Below, in pieces: positions 4,432-50,496 of a stretch of 50,496 nucleotides of DNA. The stretch lies in the NCBI GenBank assembly GCA_018819105.1, contig JAHJQV010000058.1, forward strand, positions 1-50,496. Reading direction: 5' to 3'. Position 1 is the first letter of the stretch, and each line of letters begins with the position of its first letter. Below the pieces are notes generated by a model, which did no database searches, was not told the origin of the DNA, and was given only the letters and a program-made list of their open reading frames with translations. This stretch comes from Gammaproteobacteria bacterium. Lineage in GTDB: Bacteria > Pseudomonadota > Gammaproteobacteria > Xanthomonadales > Wenzhouxiangellaceae. Position numbers and translations under genes: made by a program.

Positions 4432-4458
4432 GGCATGGCCCGGGGATCATCATTCAAC

Positions 4459-4660
4459 TCGGATTATTCCTGACCCGACCGTCGCGAGACGGTTCCAGAG
4501 CCCGCCCCGGACTGGATTCGGGGTTTTGTAGACGTGGCGTTTCGCGACCGAGCGCACCGGAGGCGTACTCACCTGTACGTTGAGGATGCGCTACCGAACG
4601 AAACGGCGCGGATGCTGGACTTGGGGCCGTCGCAGGAGATTGGGTCATGAATAATCCGGG
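4459..4660. repeat. Dispersed inverted-end repeat between lpxB and rnhB
   Basis: About 200 bp with inverted ends: GGATTATTCCTGACCC at 4461-4476 against the complement of GGGTCATGAATAATCC at 4642-4657, with one mismatch. Read on the minus strand, the interior is clearly related to the copies at 1-141 and 29167 (shared blocks near CATCCTCAACGTAC and GAGTACGCCTCCGG). It also contains a CCCCGGACTGGATTCGGG palindrome at 4505-4522. TTCAAC occurs directly on both flanks (4453-4458 and 4661-4666), which could be a target duplication or chance. The right end supplies the last codons and stop of lpxB. Confidence 0.85.
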
Positions 4661-5829
4661 TTCAACATGGCACTGACCACTGCCGCGGCCGTAGTCACCG
4701 GTTGCGCCGCTGCAGTCTGCTGGCCGTGCAGCATGCGCTCACTGAGCTCGCGCAAGCGCTGTTGCTGTATGCGGCCTGCTTCACCCAACAGCGGCAGCAA
4801 GGCTGCCACCAGCCGGTCTGGACTGGCCTGATCCTGCAACAGCTCAGGCACCACAGGCTCAGCGGCCAGCAGATTGGGCAGGCTGACATAGGCCGCCTTG
4901 TACAGACGCAGCTGCTTCAACAGCAGCCAGCTGAGTGCATGCAGACGATAACTGACCACCATCGGTGTCGCCAGCAGCATGGCTTCCAGGGTGATGGTGC
5001 CGGATGCCAGCAAGGCCGCATCGGCCACGCGCAAGGCCTGCCAGCTGCCGTGATCGGCAGGCTCCAGCCAATGCATTGGCAACTCCGGTGCCAGCTGTCG
5101 ATGTTGCTGTTCAAGCCACGGCCGCAGCCCCGCGTGCGCAGCGCAGGTGACAATCTGCAGCGGCTGCGGCAATCGCTCTGCCGCGCGCAAAAACAGCGGC
5201 CAGAGCCGCTGGATCTCACTTTCCCGACTGCCCGGCATGAGTGCCAGCACGGTGTCATCGCTGCTCAGCCCGAGCTGATCACGCAAGCGCTGCGGCGCAT
5301 GCCGGGGCTGCTGCTGAAACTGCTGCAACAGCGCCACCAGCGGATGGCCGGTGTAGTTCGCGGTCACCTGGTGGCGGTGCAGGAACTGCGCCTCGAACGG
5401 CAGCAGGCACATGACCCGATCGGTTGCCTGGCGCAAGGTCTGCACCCGTCCCTGACGCCAGGCCCACACAGACGGACAGACATAATGCAACACCCTGATG
5501 CCGCGCTGGCGCAGTTTTTTCGCCAGCGGCAGATTGAAATCCGGCGCATCGATGGTGATCACCAGATCCGGCTGCCAGGCCACGATGCGCTGCAGCAACT
5601 GCCGTCGCAGGCGCAGCAGTCGCGGCAGGTGGCGCAACACTTCCACCAGACCGAACACGGCCAGCTCATCGGCATGCCACCAGCATTGCAGTCCCTGTTC
5701 TTGCAGTGCTGGCCCGCCGATGCCGGCAGACTCGAACTGCACCCGCGTGTTCAGCTCGGTCAGCAACTGCGCCCCCAGACGATCGCCTGAAGTCTCTCCG
5801 GCAATGACGATCAGGCGACTGACAGACAT
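4645..5829 (-). CDS. lpxB: Lipid-A-disaccharide synthase
   Basis: A glycosyltransferase of 394 residues that joins UDP-diacylglucosamine and lipid X to form the lipid A disaccharide at the inner membrane. It has the N-terminal AGETSGDRLGAQLL, the central DAPDFNLPLAKKLRQ and HYVCPSVWAWRQGR, and the later LMPGSRESEI typical of LpxB. It follows lpxA by 3 bases in the usual lpxD-fabZ-lpxA-lpxB order. The last residues (MLNPDYS) and the TGA stop are encoded by the end of the inserted repeat, so the native C-terminus has been replaced or slightly extended. The core enzyme appears intact. Confidence 0.95.
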   Translation of the reverse strand: MSVSRLIVIAGETSGDRLGAQLLTELNTRVQFESAGIGGPALQEQGLQCWWHADELAVFGLVEVLRHLPRLLRLRRQLLQRIVAWQPDLVITIDAPDFNLPLAKKLRQRGIRVLHYVCPSVWAWRQGRVQTLRQATDRVMCLLPFEAQFLHRHQVTANYTGHPLVALLQQFQQQPRHAPQRLRDQLGLSSDDTVLALMPGSRESEIQRLWPLFLRAAERLPQPLQIVTCAAHAGLRPWLEQQHRQLAPELPMHWLEPADHGSWQALRVADAALLASGTITLEAMLLATPMVVSYRLHALSWLLLKQLRLYKAAYVSLPNLLAAEPVVPELLQDQASPDRLVAALLPLLGEAGRIQQQRLRELSERMLHGQQTAAAQPVTTAAAVVSAMLNPDYS

Positions 5830-17724: not shown

Positions 17725-18228
17725 TTGCAGCCACTCCATAAGTCTGTTTGCGACAGCCATGACGCCCGCACGGGCTGGTGCTGGCTGATCGCAGGGTTGA
17801 TACCTCCACTTTTCCCGTCTGACAACCGGTCTTGCCGGCACCCAGCCAGAACGTGACGAAAAGTGTGTGAATTCAATCATCTGAACCCGCAAACCAAGAT
17901 CAAAATCGATGTCTTGCGGGGCTGATTGTCAGTTTCAATCTGCGCGGACAAGCCTTGCCCGCGACAAATCCCATCCATTATGACACCTGACCTGCCTGAA
18001 AACAAGCAACAGCCTCGAACAACGCCGGGCAGGTGCTGAGCTTGCGGATTGCTGCCATGGCATGTCGCCAATTCCGGCGAAACCCATACGGAACAGGCGC
18101 GTGCAGAGTTATGCATAGGTTCCCCAAGCGTGCTCAACGCGCGCTGCAGTGATCGCAGCGCCGCAGCATTGCAAAAAACATGCGCTTGTCGCATATTGTC
18201 AGGTTGTCCGTATCGACCTGTCGCCATC
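17725..18228. other. rpsB leader and rpsB-trhO divergent intergenic region
   Basis: About 500 bases between the divergent rpsB and trhO genes with no gene I can support. It holds a sigma-70-like promoter for rpsB near 17977-18005 and therefore a leader of roughly 245 bases. Within the leader, 17944-17962 forms a tight hairpin (GCGGACAAG pairing with CTTGCCCGC, allowing one G-U pair). S2 represses its own operon through leader RNA in E. coli, so a regulatory role here is plausible but inferred. Open frames from 17892 (minus) and 18049 (plus) reach into this region without family similarity. Confidence 0.55.
17977..18005 (-). promoter_or_regulatory. Candidate sigma-70 promoter of rpsB-tsf
   Basis: On the minus strand, TTGTTT (18005-18000) and CATAAT (17982-17977) are separated by 17 bases. 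This is a good match in spacing and a fair match to TTGACA/TATAAT. It would start transcription near 17970 and drive the rpsB cluster. Confidence 0.5.
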
Positions 18229-19116
18229 ATGAGCAAAGCTGTACACATTGCCACGTTTTATCGGTTCACTGCCATCGAGCGACCGGGAGAACTGCGCGCG
18301 CGGCTACAGCGATTGTGCCAGGAGAACGACTTGCTGGGCACCATCCTGTTGGCCAGCGAGGGCATTAATGCCACCGTGTGTGGCTCCCGCGAGGGACTGG
18401 AGAAGCTGTTTGCCTGGCTGCAGACTCAGCCTGGAATGGCTGCGCTGAAGCCCCGCTACAGCAGCGCCGACAACCCGCCGTTCAAGCGCATGCTGGTGAA
18501 GGTGCGGCGGGAAATCGTCAGCTTCGGCCAGGATCGCATTGATGTGCCCGCCAACACTGGTGAGCATGTGCCGCCGGATCGCTGGGATGCCCTGATCCGG
18601 CGTCAGGACGTGCGCCTGATTGATACCCGCAACGATTATGAGGTGGGCCTGGGCCGCTTTACCGGGGCGGAAGACCCCAACACGCGCAATTTCCGTGACT
18701 TCGCCGAGTATGTGGAGCGCGAACTGGATCCCCAGCGTGACCGTCACGTGGCAATGTACTGTACCGGCGGGATCCGCTGTGAAAAAGCCAGCGCCTGGCT
18801 GCGGCAACAGGGGTTCGAGCACGTTTATCAGCTGGATGGCGGCATTCTGAACTATCTGCAGCAGGTGCCGTCCGAGCAATCCAGCTGGCAGGGCGAGTGC
18901 TTCATCTTTGATGACCGGGTATGCCTGGATCATCAGCTGCAGCCCACCGCGCGACCAATCTGTTATGCCTGCCGCATGCCGCTGAGCGCCGGTGACATGG
19001 CGTCACCGCATTATCAGGCCGACATCAGCTGCCCGCACTGCATTGATCAGCTCACGCCCGAGCGCGAGGCCAGTCTGCGCGAACGCGCCAGACAGCTGCG
19101 TCTGCGCGCCAGATAA
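18229..19116 (+). CDS. trhO: tRNA uridine-34 hydroxylase / rhodanese TrhO
   Basis: A 295-residue protein of the YceA/TrhO family, which hydroxylates uridine 34 of certain tRNAs. It has an N-terminal acylphosphatase-like domain (LLGTILLASEGINATVCGS), a rhodanese domain with the reactive cysteine in MYCTGGIRCEKAS (about Cys178), and a C-terminal cysteine-rich part with CYACRMPL and CPHC. The ATG at 18229 gives the family N-terminus; the open frame runs upstream to 18049 without similarity. Its TAA stop at 19114-19116 is also the outer edge of a dispersed repeat. Confidence 0.93.
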   Translation: MSKAVHIATFYRFTAIERPGELRARLQRLCQENDLLGTILLASEGINATVCGSREGLEKLFAWLQTQPGMAALKPRYSSADNPPFKRMLVKVRREIVSFGQDRIDVPANTGEHVPPDRWDALIRRQDVRLIDTRNDYEVGLGRFTGAEDPNTRNFRDFAEYVERELDPQRDRHVAMYCTGGIRCEKASAWLRQQGFEHVYQLDGGILNYLQQVPSEQSSWQGECFIFDDRVCLDHQLQPTARPICYACRMPLSAGDMASPHYQADISCPHCIDQLTPEREASLRERARQLRLRAR

Positions 19117-19277
19117 GCCCGGATAATTCAAAACTCTACCTACCGCGACGGTCCCATGCCCTGCATCTGCGGCAATTCGCCCGGTCACGACATGCCGCAG
19201 CCATATGGCCCCGGATCAAGTCCGGGACAGGCTCAACAACCGTCTTGTGGTGATTTCGTCTTGCATAATCCGGGGTA
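19114..19277. repeat. Dispersed inverted-end repeat at the trhO stop codon
   Basis: About 164 bp starting TAAGCCCGGATAATTC and ending GCATAATCCGGGGTA, an inverted pair. It is flanked by TA on both sides (19114-19115 and 19276-19277), compatible with a TA target duplication. The interior contains CATCTGCGGCAATTCGCCCG, related to the other copies, and CCCCGGATCAAGTCCGGG at 19209-19226. The first TAA is the stop of trhO. Confidence 0.8.
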
Positions 19278-19294
19278 GCGGCAATGCCGCCTGA

Positions 19295-20335
19295 TCAACG
19301 CGGATCGGCGGACAAATCAAACTCCACCTGTTCCGTGGGTACGTTCAGGCTGATTTCATCCAATACGTTGATCTGCGGTTCACCAGAGCCATCATCGGTG
19401 GCCACCCGATGCGGCCAGACGATGCTGACCTCTTCTCCCGCAGCAGCGACGCGGCGGTAATCGCTGTAACGCACGGTCAGCGTCCTGCTGCTGCCATCGG
19501 CAAGGCGATCCTCGGATGCCACAATTTGCGGCAGCCAACTGCTGCTACTGAGTTTCCAGATCGAGGTTTCCTCGACAGACTGCGTCGTGACCTTGCCTGC
19601 TGCCGCATCTTTACTGACGTCTTCGCCGGTCGCGGCTGCTGCTGCTGGCAAACTGAAACTGCGCCTGACCTCAATGCGCTGCAGCGTGCCATCGCCGGTG
19701 GTTTCCGGCGTCAGCAGGCGCAACGCCACCCGCTTGCCATCAGGCTGGATCAGTGGGCCGAAAAAATCAGCCTGTTCACGAATCTGCAACAGGTCAGCCC
19801 CCAGCATGGGCATGGCCTGACGGTTGCTGATCACCGGAAGCACGTTCCAGCCGCGCTCGCCGTCAAAACTGACCACGCCGGGCACCCCCAGGTACAGGTA
19901 CTCCAGCCGCAGATGATTTTTGGCCGGCTCATACCAGGCCTTGAACGGCATTTCCGCCGTGTTTTTCGTGGCCAGCGTTCTGCCCTGAATGAACACCGAG
20001 CGCACTTGCGCGATGGCATCATCGCCACCGATCGCCTGGCGATAGTTCTCCAGCACCGTCGCCAGGGTCAGATCCTGAGCCGACCCCGCTGGCATGATCA
20101 GCAGCAAAAAAATGGCAGCAATGGTACGCAGAAAACTTGCTCGGACTAGCCCGGATTGCTCAGCACCGTTCGTCGCGAGGACGTCGAGACGCCGTTGTGA
20201 CCGGGCACGCGGACTGGAAGACGCCGCCGACGCAGCCGAAACCACGTCAAGGTGGCTGGAGGGAGCTCGCCCCGTCACAGCGAGCTGATCGGCGTCCGCA
20301 GTAGAGGGGTGGTGAGCAATCCGGGCTGGGCACAT
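19295..20335 (-). CDS. Exported LolA-like protein with repeat in its 5' end
   Basis: The conserved part (about 260 residues) starts after an export-signal-like stretch, LRTIAAIFLLLIMPAGSAQ, and continues TLATVLENYRQAIGGDDAIA. This resembles periplasmic outer-membrane lipoprotein-sorting (LolA-like) proteins with a large beta sheet; I do not recognise the exact family. The only upstream ATG, at 20335, lies beyond a 180 bp dispersed repeat, so the first 60 or so codons would be repeat DNA read in frame, burying the signal peptide. No ATG, GTG or TTG lies between the repeat and the signal peptide. The native start may be lost, or translation may begin at a non-standard codon. Confidence 0.55.
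   Translation of the reverse strand: MCPARIAHHPSTADADQLAVTGRAPSSHLDVVSAASAASSSPRARSQRRLDVLATNGAEQSGLVRASFLRTIAAIFLLLIMPAGSAQDLTLATVLENYRQAIGGDDAIAQVRSVFIQGRTLATKNTAEMPFKAWYEPAKNHLRLEYLYLGVPGVVSFDGERGWNVLPVISNRQAMPMLGADLLQIREQADFFGPLIQPDGKRVALRLLTPETTGDGTLQRIEVRRSFSLPAAAAATGEDVSKDAAAGKVTTQSVEETSIWKLSSSSWLPQIVASEDRLADGSSRTLTVRYSDYRRVAAAGEEVSIVWPHRVATDDGSGEPQINVLDEISLNVPTEQVEFDLSADPR
20148..20327. repeat. Dispersed inverted-end repeat at the 5' end of the LolA-like gene
   Basis: A 180 bp element with perfect 15 bp inverted ends: AGCCCGGATTGCTCA at 20148-20162 and TGAGCAATCCGGGCT at 20313-20327. The ends match the family except for GC in place of TA in the middle. The interior (for example CGTTCGTCGCGAGGACGTC) is more diverged than in the other copies. 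No coding content of its own is evident. Confidence 0.85.
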
Positions 20336-29166: not shown

Positions 29167-29352
29167 CTAGCCCGCATTATTCATGAAACCGACTACTGCG
29201 ATGCCTCCAGTACCCGCATCTGCGGCGTTTCGCTCGGTTACGAATCCTCAACGTACTGTCAAGTACGCCTGCGGTTCGTTCGGTCGTGAAACACCACAGC
29301 TACAGGCACTGGCAGCATCTCGCGACGTCGACGCATGAATATTGCGAGCTAG
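29167..29352. repeat. Dispersed inverted-end repeat, full copy before rpoZ
   Basis: A complete copy of 186 bp. The left end is CTAGCCCGCATTATTCATGA, and the right end, GCATGAATATTGCGAGCTAG, is its imperfect inverted complement. TA lies at both outer edges. The core from 29212 is almost identical to 1-141. The interior folds on itself: GTTTCGCTCGG to GTACT pairs imperfectly with AGTACGCCTG to GTGAAAC around GTCA. It lies between the terminator and the rpoZ upstream region. Confidence 0.9.
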
Positions 29353-32076: not shown

Positions 32077-32472
32077 ATGAAACAGATCATTGCCACATCC
32101 GCCGCACCGGCCGCCATCGGCACTTACTCACAGGCCGTCGCCGCCGGAAACTGTGTCTACCTGTCCGGCCAGATCGGACTGGACCCGCAATCCATGGAGC
32201 TGGTGGCCGACAACCTGGAACTGCAGCTGCATCAGGTGTTTCGCAATCTTGCTGCGGTCTGTGCCGCCGCCGGCGGCAGTCTGGCTGACCTGGTCAAGCT
32301 CAATGTCTATCTGCTGGACATGGCCGATTTCGCCACCGTCAACCAGATCATGGCCGAACATGTGCCGGAACCATTTCCAGCCCGCGCTGCCCTGGCTGTC
32401 AGTGGTCTGCCCAAGGGTGCACGCGTGGAAATCGACGGCGTCATGCTGATCCCGCAACAACGTGGGGACTGA
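32077..32472 (+). CDS. ridA: RidA-family reactive imine deaminase
   Basis: A 131-residue trimeric enzyme that hydrolyses reactive enamine/imine intermediates such as 2-aminoacrylate. It has GTYSQAVAAGNCVYLSGQIG, the central LVKLNVYLLDMADF and the C-terminal PARAALAVSGLPKGARVEID containing the conserved arginine and the IEID-like end. AGGAA lies 9 bases before the ATG. The gene follows spoT after 155 bases and overlaps recG by 11 bases. spoT-ridA-recG is a frequent order in gammaproteobacteria. Confidence 0.95.
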   Translation: MKQIIATSAAPAAIGTYSQAVAAGNCVYLSGQIGLDPQSMELVADNLELQLHQVFRNLAAVCAAAGGSLADLVKLNVYLLDMADFATVNQIMAEHVPEPFPARAALAVSGLPKGARVEIDGVMLIPQQRGD

Positions 32473-34546
32473 TGATCCTGCGAACGATCTGCTGCAATTG
32501 CGTGGCGTGGGGGTCAAGTTTCGCGAACAGCTCAACGGCATCGGCATACAGCAGGTCCATGATCTGCTGCTGCATCTGCCCATTCGTTATGAGGACCGCA
32601 CCCGACTGACAGCGATCGGCAGTCTGAGCCCCGGCATGCGGGTGCTGGTGAATGGCCGGATTGAATACTCCAGCGTGGTGTTCGGCCGTCGTCGCGCCCT
32701 GCTGGTGGTCCTCAACGACGGCACCGGCCTGATCCATCTGCGGTTTTTTTACTTCAACCAGGCCCAGCAGCAGGCCTACAAGGCCGGTGGTCATCTGCGC
32801 TGCTTCGGTGAGGTGCGGGCCGGATACAAGGGCCTGGAAATGGTCCACCCCAGCTGCCAGCGCATCCGCCAGGCCCAGTTGGGGGTGGTCGAACAGCAGA
32901 CCCTGACGCCGGTGTATCCATCCACCAGCAGCATCAAGCAGCATCGCTGGCTACAATTGACCGATCAGGCACTGCGCCTGCTGCACAATGATCAGCTCAA
33001 ACTGCCCGAACTGTTGCCGACGGCCATACGCCAGCGGTTTCAGCTGCCGTCACTCAGACAGGCACTGCAAACGCTGCACCGGCCAGCCATCGACGATGAT
33101 CTGCCGGCCATACTGGAGCGCCGACATCCAGCCCAGCAGCGGGTCATCCTGGAAGAACTGATGGCCCACCATCTGGCCATGAAACGACTCAACCTGCAAC
33201 TGCAAAAGCTCTCCGCACCAGCCTTGCCCAACACCCAACTGTGGCAGCAGCTGGCACAACAGCTGCCATTTAAACCCACCGCTGCGCAGCTGCGGGTGAT
33301 TGCGGAAATCGGTCGTGATCTGGCCCGCCCCACACCGATGCTGCGTCTGCTGCAGGGCGATGTCGGTTCCGGCAAGACCGTGGTGGCCGCAGCGGCGGCA
33401 GCCATGGCGCTGGCCAGCGGCCAGCAGGTGGCGCTGGTGGCACCGACCGAACTGCTGGCGGAACAGCATCTGCATACCCTGCGCGCATGGTTTACCCCGC
33501 TGGGCATCGACGTGGCCTGGCTCAGCGGCCGGGTCAGCGGCAAGCAGCGCAGCGCCGCACTGGCACAGATTGCCGCCGGCGGCTGCCTGGTGGTGGGCAC
33601 CCACGCACTGATGCAGGAAGGCGTGACGTTTCACCGCCTGGGCCTGGTCATCGTCGACGAGCAGCACCGCTTTGGCGTCGGCCAGCGTCTGGCGCTGCGC
33701 GACAAGGGCGGTGGCAGCGACATGCGCCCGCATCAGTTGATCATGACCGCCACCCCGATCCCACGCACGCTGGCCATGACCGCCTACGCCGGACTGGCGG
33801 TGTCGGTGATCGATGAATTGCCACCGGGGCGCAAACCGGTGACCACCGTGGTGATCAGCAGTGAGCGCCGGACAGAAGTGATACAGCGGTTGGCAGACGC
33901 CTGTGCCGCCGGTCGCCAGGCGTACTGGGTCTGCACCATCATCGAAGAATCAGAACAGCTGGTGGCACAGGCCGCCGAACAGACCACCGAAGCCCTGCGC
34001 AAGGCCCTGCCGCAGCTGACCATTGATCTGGTGCACGGCCGGCTCAAAGCGGCCGACAAGGAACGTGTGATGCAACGCTTTCGCGACGGGCTGAGTCAGT
34101 TGCTGGTGGCCACCACGGTGATTGAGGTCGGCGTTGATGTGCCCAATGCCAGCCTGATGATCATCGACAATGCCGAGCGTCTGGGTTTGTCACAACTGCA
34201 TCAGCTGCGTGGCCGGGTCGGTCGGGGCAGCGATGCCGCCAGCTGCGTGCTGCTGTATCAGTCGCCGCTGGGCCACATGGCCAAAGCCAGACTGGAAACC
34301 ATGCGCAACAGCAACGATGGTTTCTACATCGCCGAACAGGATCTCAAGCTGCGTGGACCCGGCGAGGTGCTGGGCACCCGCCAGACCGGCATCCAGCAGA
34401 TGCGCATTGCCGACCTGGGCAAGGATCACCATCTGCTGGATCAGGCCATCGAACTGGCGGATGCGGTCGCCAGTGCCTCACCGCGTGCCGAGCAGGCGTT
34501 GATCCAGCGCTGGATTGGCGATGCTGCCAGTTATGGTGAGGTCTAA
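32462..34546 (+). CDS. recG: ATP-dependent DNA helicase RecG
   Basis: A 694-residue helicase that drives branch migration at stalled forks and recombination junctions. The N-terminal wedge domain starts LRGVGVKFREQLNGIGI. Walker A is GDVGSGKTVV (near 300), the Walker B variant is DEQHRFGVGQR (near 400), and motif III is MTATPIPRTLAMT. Motif VI lies in LSQLHQLRGRVGRG. The start is GTG at 32462, inside ridA. The TAA stop at 34544 forms the edge of an isolated repeat end shared with the convergent gene. Confidence 0.96.
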   Translation: MGTDDPANDLLQLRGVGVKFREQLNGIGIQQVHDLLLHLPIRYEDRTRLTAIGSLSPGMRVLVNGRIEYSSVVFGRRRALLVVLNDGTGLIHLRFFYFNQAQQQAYKAGGHLRCFGEVRAGYKGLEMVHPSCQRIRQAQLGVVEQQTLTPVYPSTSSIKQHRWLQLTDQALRLLHNDQLKLPELLPTAIRQRFQLPSLRQALQTLHRPAIDDDLPAILERRHPAQQRVILEELMAHHLAMKRLNLQLQKLSAPALPNTQLWQQLAQQLPFKPTAAQLRVIAEIGRDLARPTPMLRLLQGDVGSGKTVVAAAAAAMALASGQQVALVAPTELLAEQHLHTLRAWFTPLGIDVAWLSGRVSGKQRSAALAQIAAGGCLVVGTHALMQEGVTFHRLGLVIVDEQHRFGVGQRLALRDKGGGSDMRPHQLIMTATPIPRTLAMTAYAGLAVSVIDELPPGRKPVTTVVISSERRTEVIQRLADACAAGRQAYWVCTIIEESEQLVAQAAEQTTEALRKALPQLTIDLVHGRLKAADKERVMQRFRDGLSQLLVATTVIEVGVDVPNASLMIIDNAERLGLSQLHQLRGRVGRGSDAASCVLLYQSPLGHMAKARLETMRNSNDGFYIAEQDLKLRGPGEVLGTRQTGIQQMRIADLGKDHHLLDQAIELADAVASASPRAEQALIQRWIGDAASYGEV

Positions 34547-34560
34547 GCCCGGATTATTCC
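34544..34560. repeat. Isolated repeat terminus between convergent genes
   Basis: The 17 bases TAAGCCCGGATTATTCC match the end of the dispersed repeats (compare 19114 and the complement of 4642-4660), but no partner end or interior follows. It contains the recG stop (TAA, 34544-34546) on the plus strand and the transferase stop (TAA, 34554-34556) on the minus strand. It is either a remnant of excision or a site from which the repeats derive. Confidence 0.7.
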
Positions 34561-35360
34561 CGCACAGCTGCTGTGGTCAGCAGCTTGAATCTGCGCAAAA
34601 CACTGACACTGGCAGCATGTGCGACCGCGACAAGCATGTCATCGTCTGCTGCTGGCGTGCTGATGTGCAGACTGTGCAGCACATCGTCGCTTGGCTCGTT
34701 GATGGCGGCGGTGAGGCTGACTTGCTGTCCAGACAAGGCCACGGCAAAGCGGTCCAGCCCGGAAACAATGCCGCCTCCGGTGGCCTTGACCACCGCTTCC
34801 TTGCAGGTCCACAGGCGCATGAATGCTGCAGGTTGTTGCGCCGGCGGCAGGGCTTGCAGCCAGCGCACCTCGGCGGGATGAAAATGGCGTCGCGCCATGC
34901 GCATGGGGTCGCGCACGCGGCGACTGGCGGCTTCCATGTCCACCCCGAGCGGGTGATCCCGGCACAGCGCCACCAGCATGGCGCTGCCGACATGACTGAG
35001 GCTGAAGTACAGCGGCGGTCTGCTGGTCGGCGTGTGCTGGGCTGATGGCCTGACCGCGGTCGGTCCGCCTGCGCCGGTGGCAACATAAGGCTTGCCGCTG
35101 GCGGTCCTGCCAATGCGCACGGCATGCGCGGGACGCTGCAGGTGAGCGGCCAGCAGCAGACGCAGATAAAATCGCTGCTGAAACCTCAGCAATCGCGGTG
35201 ATGCAGAAGACCTGCTGTCCGCGTTATCGATCCTGGCTTGTGGTTCGAGCGCCGCCGGATCCGGCAGATCTGCCATCTGCAGATGCCACAAATGTACCTC
35301 ACCCGACGGCAGCTGCAGGTCGCGCAGCGGCAGCGGCATGGCACGCACATCCGACGTCAT
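34554..35360 (-). CDS. 4'-phosphopantetheinyl transferase (Sfp type)
   Basis: An Sfp-like transferase of about 268 residues that attaches phosphopantetheine from CoA to carrier proteins. The magnesium motif is GVDME (D141/E143 from this start), and WTCKEAVVKATGGG carries the Lys-Glu pair. LYFSLSHVGSAMLVAL matches the family SxSH region. An ATG at 35411 is also in frame but overlaps the kinase by 46 bases; 35360 lies 5 bases after the kinase stop and is preferred. No polyketide or peptide synthase is in the window, so its carrier target is unknown. The stop lies in a shared repeat end. Confidence 0.85.
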   Translation of the reverse strand: MTSDVRAMPLPLRDLQLPSGEVHLWHLQMADLPDPAALEPQARIDNADSRSSASPRLLRFQQRFYLRLLLAAHLQRPAHAVRIGRTASGKPYVATGAGGPTAVRPSAQHTPTSRPPLYFSLSHVGSAMLVALCRDHPLGVDMEAASRRVRDPMRMARRHFHPAEVRWLQALPPAQQPAAFMRLWTCKEAVVKATGGGIVSGLDRFAVALSGQQVSLTAAINEPSDDVLHSLHISTPAADDDMLVAVAHAASVSVLRRFKLLTTAAVRE

Positions 35361-35365
35361 CTCGG

Positions 35366-36091
35366 TCAATGCTGCAACCCCAGCCAGTGCCGCAGCTTGC
35401 GCCACAGCCATTCCGCCGCAGTGACCTGCAGCTTGTTCCGGTCAGCGCCGGCGATCCGGGCATAGTGACCGTGGTACTTGTGCTTTAGCACGGCATTGAT
35501 GTCGGCGCGGCAATGCTGGCGGAACAACCAGTTGTTGAACACATGCCACCAGGCCTTGCGGCGGATCGCTGTGCCCAGATCCAGCACCCAGGGCTGACCG
35601 TCGCTACCGGCGAGCAGATTGGCCTTGCGCTTGAGATCACCGTGACTGACGCCGCGCGCATGCATGGCGCGCACGATCTGCTCCAGCTGCTCGAACCAGC
35701 GCTCACGATCAGCCAGCTGCGCCTGACGATATGCGGTGCCCGGCACGTATTGCAGTACCAGCGCCCAGGGCAGCGGCATGCCGTGGCAGCGCGGTATGCC
35801 GGTGATGCCATGCAGGCGCTGGTAAGCCAGCTGTTCGCGCCGCAGCATCCAGCAGCGCGCCCACCGCAACAGACCGCTGCCGCTGGCGCACTTGACCGCC
35901 AGATCGTGCCCGGCATGACGCTTGCGCACGATCACCCCCTGATGACCGCTGGCCAGCACACTGGCCGGATCCCTGCATGCCGGCCGCAACCAGTCACGGA
36001 ACTGCGCCGATGTCAGCCAATCCTGCAGAAGCCGGTCATCATTTCTGGCCGCACGCTCTGAGGCGTTGCTGTTGTTCGTCTGCTCAGACAT
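35366..36091 (-). CDS. Small LPS-kinase-like protein kinase
   Basis: A 241-residue protein with a minimal kinase fold, like Kdo/heptose kinases (KdkA/WaaP) and RIO-type kinases. Visible motifs are the ATP lysine in HDLAVKCA (K67), the catalytic loop SHGDLKRKANLL (D142) and DLG at 161-163 in place of DFG. The partner could be a lipopolysaccharide core sugar, but this is inferred from the fold only. The start at 36091 (MSEQTNN) is chosen because the longer open frame runs across the divergent gene at 36144. It is 52 bases from that gene and directly upstream of the phosphopantetheinyl transferase. Confidence 0.75.
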   Translation of the reverse strand: MSEQTNNSNASERAARNDDRLLQDWLTSAQFRDWLRPACRDPASVLASGHQGVIVRKRHAGHDLAVKCASGSGLLRWARCWMLRREQLAYQRLHGITGIPRCHGMPLPWALVLQYVPGTAYRQAQLADRERWFEQLEQIVRAMHARGVSHGDLKRKANLLAGSDGQPWVLDLGTAIRRKAWWHVFNNWLFRQHCRADINAVLKHKYHGHYARIAGADRNKLQVTAAEWLWRKLRHWLGLQH

Positions 36092-40755: not shown

Positions 40756-41097
40756 AAGGAACCTCTGAACAACTCTGCACGGGCGCGACGGCACCCCCAC
40801 ATCGGGATCCGCGACATGCTTTGCGGGAGGCTCCGACTTGGCCTGGGTAAATGTGGTTTGACCATGATTAAATATTTTTGCCCAAACGAGCGCGCCCAAA
40901 CGAGACGCAGACCTCGCAAAGAGCCTGCCCCGGACTTGATCCGGGATGCGTCCCGAAAGGGTTTCGCCGGAAAAGACGCAGCTCATGCACGGCATCACGA
41001 GGCCGTAGCGACGGCTACTGTCACTCGTGCCGCCGCACACAATCTGCGGCGTTTCCGAACAAAACGCGCTCCGCGCAGAGCTATTCAGAGGTTCCTT
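40756..41097. mobile_element. MITE-like element with perfect 14 bp inverted ends
   Basis: A 342 bp non-coding element bounded by AAGGAACCTCTGAA (40756-40769) and TTCAGAGGTTCCTT (41084-41097), an exact inverted pair. The inside holds a direct repeat, GCCCAAACGAG (40880 and 40894), and a CCCCGGACTTGATCCGGG palindrome (40928-40945) shared with the other repeat family. One plus-strand frame happens to stay open through it into the metalloprotease gene. No transposase is encoded, so it must have been moved by an enzyme elsewhere. It ends 18 bases before the next start codon. Confidence 0.85.
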
Positions 41098-46416: not shown

Positions 46417-46600
46417 CTAGCCCGCATTATTCATGAGTCGACGTCGCGAGATGCTGCCAGTGCGTGTAGCTGTGGTGTTTCGAGAGCGAACGAACCGCAG
46501 GCATCCTTGACAGTACATTGCGGATTCGTGACCGGGCGAAACGCCGCAGATTCGCGAGCTGGAGGCATCGCAGTAGTCAGATTCATGACTATTGCGGGCT
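46417..46600. repeat. Dispersed inverted-end repeat between M14 and DUF2254 genes
   Basis: A copy of about 184 bp starting CTAGCCCGCATTATTCATGA and ending TCATGACTATTGCGGGCT. The interior (GTCGACGTCGCGAGATGCTG onward) is the reverse complement of the copies at 1-141 and 29167, so it is inserted in the opposite orientation. It has more substitutions than the other two. The right end lies 26 bases before the DUF2254 start codon and contains an in-frame ATG at 46585. Confidence 0.88.
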
Positions 46601-48115: not shown

Positions 48116-50496
48116 ATGGAAGTACTATCATCGGCACAGATTCTTGTGCGCAGGGCTTTTTTTCGTGCCACCGCAGTATTGCTGCTGGCCTGTATCTTTG
48201 CAACGACTGCCTCAGCAGGTTTGTTGTTTTCCGGCACCGCAGTCAGTGACGCCGGTACCGACAACAGCATTGCCTCCGGCAATACCACGCGCAATCTTGC
48301 AGTGGGCGCCGACGGCACCATCTATGCTGTCTATCGCGGGGCCACTGGCGGTATCCGGGTCGCACGCAGTGTCAACCGAGGGGCCAGCTTTCAGCCCAGC
48401 GTGCAGGTCTCCAGCCAGAACTTTGAGGCTGAGATCGCGGTCAGCACCACCGGCATCATCTATGTGGTTTGGGCCGACAGTTCCAGCCGTGCCCGCATCA
48501 GCCGCAGTCTCGATGACGGACTCAGCTTCTCCGCACCCATTGATGCCGGACCAGCGTCCACCAGCGTGCACATGGCCACCGACGGCAGCCGTGTGTACCT
48601 GATCGACCGCCCGGGCAACAACATTCTGGTCAGTGAAGACAACGGTCTCAGCTTCAGCCAGGTGGCTTTGAACGCCAGCCAGGTTTTTTCCGATATCCAT
48701 GTCGATGAACAGACCCGTGAAATCATCGCTGTGCTGGACAACCCCGCAGTAAAGTACTTCACCAGCAGCGACTTTGGTGCCAGTTTTGGCGCACAGATCA
48801 ATCCGAATCCAGGCGGTAGCATCTTTTTCTCCGTGGGCACCGTCAGCAGCGGCAGCGGTGGTCGTTTTATGTTCGTCAGTGGACAGGGTACCAATGCGCT
48901 GAAAATCAATCTTGATACCGGTACGTCTGAAACCCTGACATTCGGCAACAACACCAGCAGCCAGGGACGCTCGCTGACTTCCGATCGCTGTGGCAACGTC
49001 ATTGATGGTTTTGTCAATGGCGGCAACGTCAACTTCCGCATCAGCAATGATCTTGGCAGCAGTTTCGGCAGCCAGCAGACGGTGGCTGCAGCGAACGCCG
49101 CCAACGTCTTCATCAACCCAACCAATGGCGACATTCTGTATCTGTTTGATCAGGGTGGTGAGGTGTTCCTCAGCGTGTTCAACGAGGAACTGGGCAATTG
49201 CTACACGCCGACACTGAACCAGTCGGCCCTGGTCTTCAGCGCCCTGCTGGTGGGCCAGACCAGCCAGCCGCAGCAGGTCGTGATCAGCAACTCCGGCATC
49301 GTTGATGTGCAGATTCTTGGTATCACTTCAACCTCTGCTGAATTTTCTCAAAGCAACGCCTGTGTCGGCACACTGGCCGTTGGTGACAGCTGTCCTATCG
49401 ACGTTACCTTTACCCCTTCCGGCACCGGCACCAGAACTGGCGAGCTGCTCATTGACACCAATGTCTTTGTCGACGCTCGCCAGGTTTCTCTCACAGGTGA
49501 AGGTGTGGCCACCGCCCCGGTGCCGCAATTCAGCACCGGCAGCATAGATTTTGGTGCCGTATTGAGCGGCAACAGTGCCAATGCCAGCGTCCAACTGAGC
49601 AACGCTGGTACCAATGATCTGACCATCAATGGCTTCAATGTACCAGCTCCATTCAGCGTGGTCAGTGAGGATTGCGGAGCCAGCCTGATCCCGACGGCAA
49701 GCTGCACCATCAATCTGGCCTTCTCTCCCACCAGCACTGGCAGCTTCAATGCCTCGCTGGTGCTGGATTCCAACGCAGCCGGGGCACCGGCATCGGTGGC
49801 GCTCAGCGGACTGGGCTCCAGTCTGTTCAGCGTTGCAGGCAATGTCTCGGGACTGTTGGGCACCGGACTGGTGCTACAGAACAATGGCGGTGATGATCTG
49901 CTGATCAACGCGGACGGTGCCTTTGTGTTCAACACGGAACTGGCCGATGGCAGCCTATATGCCGTCACCATACTGAGCCAGCCCAGCGGCCCGAGCCAAA
50001 CATGCAGCGTTGCCAATGGCAGCGGCAACATCAGTGGTGCGGACGTCACGAATGTCAGCGTGACCTGCTCCACCGCGCAGTTCAGCGTTGGCGGCAGCGT
50101 CTCCGGTCTGCTCGGCAGTGGCCTGGTGTTACAGAACAACGCCGGTGACAACCTGGCCATCGGCGCCGATGGCAGCTTCAGCTTTGCCACCGCACTGGAC
50201 GATGGCTCGACCTACAACGTCAGTGTCTTCAGCCAGCCGGCATCACCCAGCCAGACCTGTGCTGTCAGCAATGGGACCGGCGCACTGGCCGGCAGTGATA
50301 TATCCAACGTTAGCGTCAGCTGTGTGACCAACCAGTTTACCGTTGGCGGCAGCGTCTCAGGTCTGGTCGGCAGTGGCCTGGTGTTACAGAACAACGCCGG
50401 TGACAACCTGGCCATCGGCGCCGATGGCAGCTTCAGCTTTGCCACCGCACTGGACGATGGCTCGACCTACAACGTCAGTGTCTTCAGCCAGCCGGC
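48116..50496 (+). CDS. Secreted Asp-box / choice-of-anchor D repeat protein (partial)
   Basis: An open frame of at least 793 codons running off the window. GGGAGG lies 5 bases before the ATG. A signal peptide (about residues 1-36, ending TTASA) is followed by a propeller-like region with at least five Asp-box motifs of the type S-x-D-x-G-x-S-F (SLDDGLSF, SEDNGLSF, SSDFGASF, SNDLGSSF and the variant SVNRGASF). Two beta-sandwich domains of choice-of-anchor D type follow (each with a C-x(n)-C pair such as NACVGTLAVGDSCPIDVTF), then 85-residue tandem repeats. It is probably surface-exposed or secreted; Asp-box propellers occur in sialidases and binding proteins, but catalytic residues cannot be assigned. 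Confidence 0.88.
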   Translation, partial: MEVLSSAQILVRRAFFRATAVLLLACIFATTASAGLLFSGTAVSDAGTDNSIASGNTTRNLAVGADGTIYAVYRGATGGIRVARSVNRGASFQPSVQVSSQNFEAEIAVSTTGIIYVVWADSSSRARISRSLDDGLSFSAPIDAGPASTSVHMATDGSRVYLIDRPGNNILVSEDNGLSFSQVALNASQVFSDIHVDEQTREIIAVLDNPAVKYFTSSDFGASFGAQINPNPGGSIFFSVGTVSSGSGGRFMFVSGQGTNALKINLDTGTSETLTFGNNTSSQGRSLTSDRCGNVIDGFVNGGNVNFRISNDLGSSFGSQQTVAAANAANVFINPTNGDILYLFDQGGEVFLSVFNEELGNCYTPTLNQSALVFSALLVGQTSQPQQVVISNSGIVDVQILGITSTSAEFSQSNACVGTLAVGDSCPIDVTFTPSGTGTRTGELLIDTNVFVDARQVSLTGEGVATAPVPQFSTGSIDFGAVLSGNSANASVQLSNAGTNDLTINGFNVPAPFSVVSEDCGASLIPTASCTINLAFSPTSTGSFNASLVLDSNAAGAPASVALSGLGSSLFSVAGNVSGLLGTGLVLQNNGGDDLLINADGAFVFNTELADGSLYAVTILSQPSGPSQTCSVANGSGNISGADVTNVSVTCSTAQFSVGGSVSGLLGSGLVLQNNAGDNLAIGADGSFSFATALDDGSTYNVSVFSQPASPSQTCAVSNGTGALAGSDISNVSVSCVTNQFTVGGSVSGLVGSGLVLQNNAGDNLAIGADGSFSFATALDDGSTYNVSVFSQP
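49826..50496 (+). repeat. 255 bp tandem coding repeats
   Basis: Three repeats with a 255-base (85-residue) period begin at 49826, 50081 and 50336; the third is cut by the window end. Each opens with F(S/T)V-G-VSGL-G-GLVLQNN and contains a Cys pair (QTC...VxC). Repeats 2 and 3 are almost identical at the DNA level over the visible 160 bases, with about four differences near the start. Repeat 1 is clearly more diverged. This indicates recent duplication of the last units. Confidence 0.92.

Follow-up and report, generated by a model that had tools for sequence, protein, structure and literature searches.

The repeat that borders the stop codons of trhO and recG in the window (the whole stretch of 50,496 nucleotides analyzed here) is very probably a nonautonomous derivative (MITE) of the IS1380 family, with a distribution shaped by its target motif and by selective loss of copies elsewhere. 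As a family it is not new in kind, and the mechanism is the ordinary one of an IS1380-type MITE with a stop-like target. The element begins at CCC, and the TA plus A or G in front of it is part of the duplicated target, which is a 4-bp YTAR or a 5-bp YTNAR. A sequence-only reading had proposed that the element targets TA and begins with A or G, so that insertion into the TA of TAA or TAG would recreate a stop and be nearly neutral. The near neutrality stands, and so does the preservation of the stop. The proposed start and target do not, and the stop is not rebuilt from the first base of the element, since the whole of it sits inside the duplicated target.

The trhO and recG junctions

The in-frame ORF at 18229 to 19116 (plus strand, ATG at 18229, stop TAA at 19114-19116) was identified as trhO, coding for tRNA uridine(34) hydroxylase, by a profile search of its protein (NCBIfam NF001133, above cut-off). 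As first noticed from the letters alone, its stop meets the edge of a repeat: TAAGCCCGGATAATTC runs from 19114, its first three bases are the in-frame TAA, and the exact 16-mer has a single occurrence in the genome. A single G separates the TAA from CCCGGATAATTC, with which a 157-bp element (19118 to 19274, plus strand) begins; its ends are CCCGGATAATTCAAAA and, inverted, CCCGGATTATGCAAGA. This is a diverged MITE, matched to other members by blastn pieces of 52 to 111 nt at 71 to 81% identity that jointly cover it (best E value of 1.3e-13, among the best 15 matches listed), i.e., ca. 20 to 29% divergence from its relatives. The left flank, ATAAG (19113 to 19117, plus strand), is a candidate 5-bp target enclosing the trhO stop; it and the right flank, GTAGC (19275 to 19279, plus strand), form no matching target duplication in this decayed copy. 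Judging from the behavior of the element family, the trhO copy probably landed on a stop codon. In the relative G001, trhO and the convergent neighbor (an ORF at 19295 to 20335, minus strand; tblastn to L217, E value of 2e-82) are syntenic, and no element was seen between the two. The trhO gene of G001 ends two residues later than that of the window, so the stop in the window may not be ancestral. On the other side of trhO, a t44 RNA (17796 to 17887, minus strand; RF00127, 58.7 bits) is the only match at the Rfam gathering level in the window.

The second junction of this kind, also recognized in the sequence-only reading, is that of recG (ORF at 32462 to 34546, plus strand; NF008163, 998 bits with a cut-off of 796), whose TAA (34544-34546) is followed by GCCCGGATTATTC. 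The repeat end at 34548 to 34563 (plus strand) has three mismatches to the 16-nt core and is single: a partner end was looked for here and not found. Within it falls the stop (TTA at 34554-34556 on the plus strand) of a convergent ORF (34554 to 35411, minus strand) that resembles 4'-phosphopantetheinyl transferases and scores below all curated cut-offs. By comparison with relatives, the recG stop is native, because all nine listed (9/9) stop at the residue matching query residue 299 and G001, with the sequence TAAGCAGCC, has no repeat end there. The last four residues, YGEV, are identical in four relatives (G001, G004, G007, and G008).

A MITE family with IS1380-type ends

Allowing up to three mismatches, the 18-mer AGCCCGGATTATTCATGA was found at 58 + 59 = 117 places in the genome of the window (G000), and its reversed control at none (0 + 0). 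In the stretches fetched we recognized 151 elements, 73 in G000, 27 in G022, 33 in G002, and 18 in G005, which are short, without a gene of their own, present in many copies, and bounded by inverted ends, as MITEs are. The two-ended copies of G000 (n = 42) range from 55 to 343 bp, with 18 of 178 to 179 bp and 12 of 201 to 203 bp, and those of G022 mostly measure 161 bp. Palindromic forms occur at 55 bp and perhaps also at 26 to 39 bp. An exact 18-base C-type end occurs in 2/30 genomes of the genus of G022 and an exact 18-base G-type end in 7/43 genomes of the taxonomic family. Further members lie in the window: one of the CCCGC type truncated at the edge of the contig (1 to 137), one of 203 bp with an exact 5-bp duplication (4458 to 4660), two of 178 bp, flanked by CTAG on both sides (29171 to 29348) or by CTAG and CTTG (46421 to 46598), and a diverged one with inverted CCCGGATTGCTCA ends (20150 to 20325), detected by pattern matches and left out of the counts. 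Thirteen contig ends of G000, including the left edge of the window, have a repeat end no more than 160 bases away. The right end of the window (50051 to 50496) carries a direct repeat of 191 nt with 92% identity and a spacing of 255. A different inverted-repeat element, with AAGGAACCTCTGAA... arms of 27 bp that are 89% complementary, is located at 40756 to 41097, and a 25-mer inside it (40921 to 40945) is 96% complementary to 19210 to 19234 of the trhO element.

It is highly improbable that a TAA simply happens to precede a string resembling a repeat end. By our own arithmetic, two to three mismatches in 16 bases lead one to expect a few random matches per genome, so that several single ends may be due to chance, and the recG end is both single and with three mismatches. 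However, the 18-mer control gave no matches, stop junctions are above the rate at noncoding targets (see below), and the trhO repeat, which has two ends and whose interior matches related copies, contradicts a coincidence, the recG end being the weaker case.

The affiliation to IS1380 comes from the ends. Among 16 IS1380-type loci of relatives, four have transposases with similar ends on both sides, namely L111 (CCCGGATATTTCATGA), L112 (CCCGCATTTCTCACA), L113 (CCCGGATTATTCATAA), and L098 (CCCACCTTATTCATC). Another, L114, has a broken IS1380 gene and, 236 bases from it, an exact C-type end (CCCGCATTATTCATGA); at the remaining 11, other ends or none were found. The MITE end CCCGGATTATTCATGA resembles the IS1380 ends CCCGGATTATTCATAA (L113 and L248) and CCCGGATATTTCATGA (L111), so the terminal inverted repeats of the MITEs are like those of IS1380 elements. 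All four transposases given matched NF033539 (296 to 398 bits, cut-off of 180), and all five proteins given matched PF13701 (DDE transposase), which had no matches in G000, neither in the element nor in the genome; hence, the repeat was filed as an IS1380 derivative and not as an insertion sequence. A scan of named genomes produced 80 IS1380 loci, and 40 of the 54 examined had ends matching in at least 14/18 positions; the ends were picked by similarity alone, a few of the 40 picks are clearly mistaken, and one genome contributes several of the loci (an earlier end picking on the same 54/80 loci gave a bonus for a duplication). IS1380 insertion sequences (PF13701, NF033539) have terminal repeats similar to those of the MITEs (CCCGGATTATTCATAA, CCCGGATATTTCATCA, and the like) and share the YTAR target, with the 4-bp duplication measured in the autonomous elements, but they have a length of ca. 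1.6 to 1.8 kb, in contrast to the 55 to 343 bp of the two-ended G000 copies, which have no transposase gene. The IS5 family, with YTAR or TNA as target, was set aside once IS1380 elements with similar ends turned up. IS1247, of the IS1380 family, is given as 1,672 bp long with a 5-bp duplication (PMC3281130).

Target and duplication

Autonomous IS1380 elements with ends like those of the MITEs start at CC, and an exact 4-bp duplication was present in 27/40 (shuffled mean of 10.5 and maximum of 19 in 1,000), the duplicated targets including CTAG, TTAG, CTAA, CTAC, CTAT, and ATAG. Among the GACC-type MITEs, 11/30 have an exact 5-bp duplication (shuffled mean of 1.26 and maximum of 6 in 500), and the consensus of their flanks is YTNAR (54 ends). 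The other MITE ends are flanked by CTAG, with frequencies of 0.86, 0.92, 0.91, and 0.95 along the four positions (148 ends); here, exact 4-bp duplications amount to 35/63 vs 33.2 after shuffling, the constancy of CTAG masking whether it is duplicated or an element-borne end. A target duplication of 4 to 5 bp is, therefore, found at the level of the family. The YTNAR and CTAG flank consensus and the 5-bp duplications assign the A or G that precedes CCC to the target and not to the element. Read off the letters, YTNAR has TRA on exactly one strand (YTRAR reads TAA or TGA), and YTAR has TAA or TAG on both. Whichever its form, the target thus includes a stop trinucleotide on one strand or both, and therefore a stop within the target survives insertion.

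Two other frames looked possible on the first flank list and were then rejected. One is a TA duplication with an element starting with G. The other is a 3-bp TNA duplication, which would be IS5/IS1031-like; 3 bp were exact in 0/30 beyond the 5-bp frame. The base before CCC is accompanied by the same base in the opposite flank, so that a 5-bp frame agrees better with the GACC type, and the ends are supplied by IS1380 elements.

At L120:1516-1521 (G022), two MITE ends point apart across one CTAG, so the duplicated target is seemingly itself a target. In several genomes, a MITE is bordered at a shared CTAG or variant by the end of a second repeat, CTAGTGTACCCC(GCCGG)... or CTAGTGGGCCAT... (L044, L056, L058, L061, and L082 in G000; L119, L138, L139, and L143 in G022; L185 and L190 in G005), and it seems that one target is used or recreated by two repeat families. 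CTAGTGTACCCC was counted 31 times in the sequence fetched, 1.15 Mb with some overlap between stretches.

Stop codons and gene 3' ends

The occurrence of stop codons at the insertion points was compared with that at target-motif sites outside coding bodies, split by the presence of a stop codon inside, and used instead of plain TA sites. Genes were called with a home-made codon-usage script, and a site counted as 3' flank if it lay on a stop or no more than 100 bp from the 3' end of a gene. The pooled test had five strata from four genomes (G000 G-type, G000 C-type, G022, G002, and G005), with the trhO and recG cases left out. The G000 census covers 100/117 terminus places, the other 17 only if inside a stretch fetched for another end, and unpaired ends with more than two mismatches were skipped, except that of recG, added by hand. 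For G000, G002, and G005, the null sites were drawn from the stretches that contain the elements, and two of the CTAG nulls are small, with 37 and 11 sites. The YTNAR null served for every G002 copy, including six two-ended ones that carry CTAG-type ends. Odds ratios (OR) exclude the 15/151 elements with a neighboring gene ending inside, plus one G-type end of G022.

Elements cluster near gene 3' ends. Pooled, 72 were near any 3' end vs 46.4 expected (OR of 3.33, P = 1.5e-8), and stop junctions numbered 35 vs 21.0 expected at noncoding targets (OR of 2.77, P = 3e-5). The same 35 compare with 32.4 when the test is confined to targets with a 3' end within 100 bp (OR of 1.27, one-sided P = 0.26). 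Two-ended copies alone gave ORs of 4.02 (near a 3' end), 2.95 (noncoding), and 1.11 (given a 3' end). A first count dropped ends sharing 30 flanking bases with another end (150 elements, 151 with the rule lifted), and the result given a 3' end is insensitive to it (OR of 1.28 and P = 0.25 with the rule, 1.27 and 0.26 without). Since the pooled excess vanishes given a 3' end, the excess of stop junctions is one of 3' flanks, and within these the frequency of hits on stops is roughly what the motif permits. The data, thus, support near-neutral insertion and not a special affinity for stop codons; the excess over 3' intergenic sites, on which the sequence-only reading had made its proposal depend, is absent from the pooled data within error, with a residue in the G-type elements of G000. 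By stratum, the proportions near a 3' end, elements vs null, were 21/27 vs 129/432 (G000 G-type), 19/24 vs 29/63 (G022), 15/30 vs 36/143 (G002), 5/14 vs 1/11 (G005), and 12/38 vs 12/37 (G000 C-type), the last being the one stratum of five where the bias is absent.

True targeting, with the transposase or target complex drawn to stop codons or 3' ends beyond the motif, appears unlikely, even if some single strata (uncorrected P values) point to it. A stop lies in the target of 12/27 G-type elements of G000 vs 44/432 null sites (P = 1.5e-5) and, near 3' ends, of 12/21 vs 44/129 (P = 0.039, half of the excess coming from doubtful single ends). In G022, 12/24 copies outside coding bodies have a stop at the edge vs 43/218 YTAR sites (P = 0.0018), and in autonomous copies (44 of the 54 loci) the target contains the end of an open frame of 60 codons or more in 18/44 vs 58/263 flanking YTAR sites (P = 0.008). 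However, with the usual target, CTAG, as reference, the 12/24 of G022 are set against 21 stop codons among 63 noncoding sites (P = 0.12), no significant excess was found for the C-type of G000 (4/38 vs 3/37), G002 (4/30 vs 12/143), or G005 (3/14 vs 1/11), and the pooled test is also null once a 3' end is given. An older G-type and a younger C-type were considered as the cause of the strong excess being restricted to the G-type in G000, and dropped because within-group identities are close (0.92 for C-type of 178 to 179 bp, 0.96 for C-type of 202 bp, and 0.89 for G-type of 201 to 203 bp).

Still less probable is that selection keeps the copies at 3' ends because a putative hairpin serves the host as terminator or stabilizer of the mRNA 3' end. 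The 42 two-ended G000 copies fold at -13 to -171 kcal/mol (raw values, without a shuffle control), and the palindromic forms, of 55 bp and perhaps down to 26 to 39 bp, would suit such a role, but no terminator-like site was detected in 18900 to 19500, the region of the trhO copy, and the C-type copies of G000 lack the 3'-end bias.

The reading that we prefer, a MITE with a stop-like target, would work as follows. The element would presumably be moved in trans by an IS1380 transposase whose target, a short palindrome of the form YTAR (mostly CTAG) or YTNAR, is duplicated on insertion. In a genome densely packed with genes, most insertions in genes or near promoters would be lost by purifying selection, the probable cause of the 3' bias, and those in 3' flanks would survive. 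Stop codons make up a large share of the targets there, and insertion at one would duplicate the stop and leave the gene unchanged. In G000, the commonest distances from the stop to CCC are 0 and 1 (seven and eleven ends, respectively, trhO and recG included), and in G022 there are twelve ends at 0, with every other positive value represented by at most two ends (within 60 bases). At L077, the TAG stop of each neighboring gene falls in the CTAG that flanks the element, and the two genes would have converged on one common CTAG prior to the insertion. This illustrates a route by which a transposon may accumulate more than 100 copies of its end in a compact genome while doing little harm, by means of a stop-like target that is copied on insertion. 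The effect is measurable and can mostly be explained without special targeting.

Relation to other elements and remodeled gene ends

In the literature covered, mostly outside subscription journals, we found no description of this MITE family and no link of IS1380 elements with stop-codon targets. Bacterial MITEs such as Correia/NEMIS, RUP, and MITEAba12 are also short and noncoding, with inverted ends and target duplication (PMC2229807, PMC6382973). RUP is tied there to IS630 and TA targets and MITEAba12 to ISAba12 and 9-bp duplications, whereas the ends here are IS1380-like and the target is YTAR/YTNAR; MITEAba12 is also described as giving a gene a premature stop (PMC2229807, PMC6382973). 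For piggyBac, the source gives a 4-bp TTAA target (with variants including TTAG, CTAA, and TCAA) and terminal repeats that often start with CCC, and it uses IS1380 as the outgroup (PMC10813416). Unlike the MITEs described here, piggyBac is eukaryotic. One might speculate, although we give the idea little credence, that the IS1380 target evolved into a de facto stop codon, making gene ends safe harbors renewed by each insertion, and that this preference is an adaptation of the transposase that spares the host and has its like in the TTAA of piggyBac. If so, convergent genes with one common CTAG, as at L077, would be the foremost safe harbors.

Gene ends beside such repeats may be remodeled, which calls for caution. 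Among the 15 of 151 elements inside which a neighboring gene ends, 11/15 of the listed cases do so at a tail encoded by the terminus, CCG SAT TAT TCA TGA or a variant. In the window, the minus-strand gene at 4645 to 5829 terminates in this way (CCG GAT TAT TCA TGA) within the terminus of the 203-bp member, and other tails supplied by the element were observed at L036, L049, L058, L062, and L076. At L045:1503 and L076:1503, inspection by eye revealed single ends whose TTCATGA may provide the ATG of the next gene, after or overlapping the previous stop.
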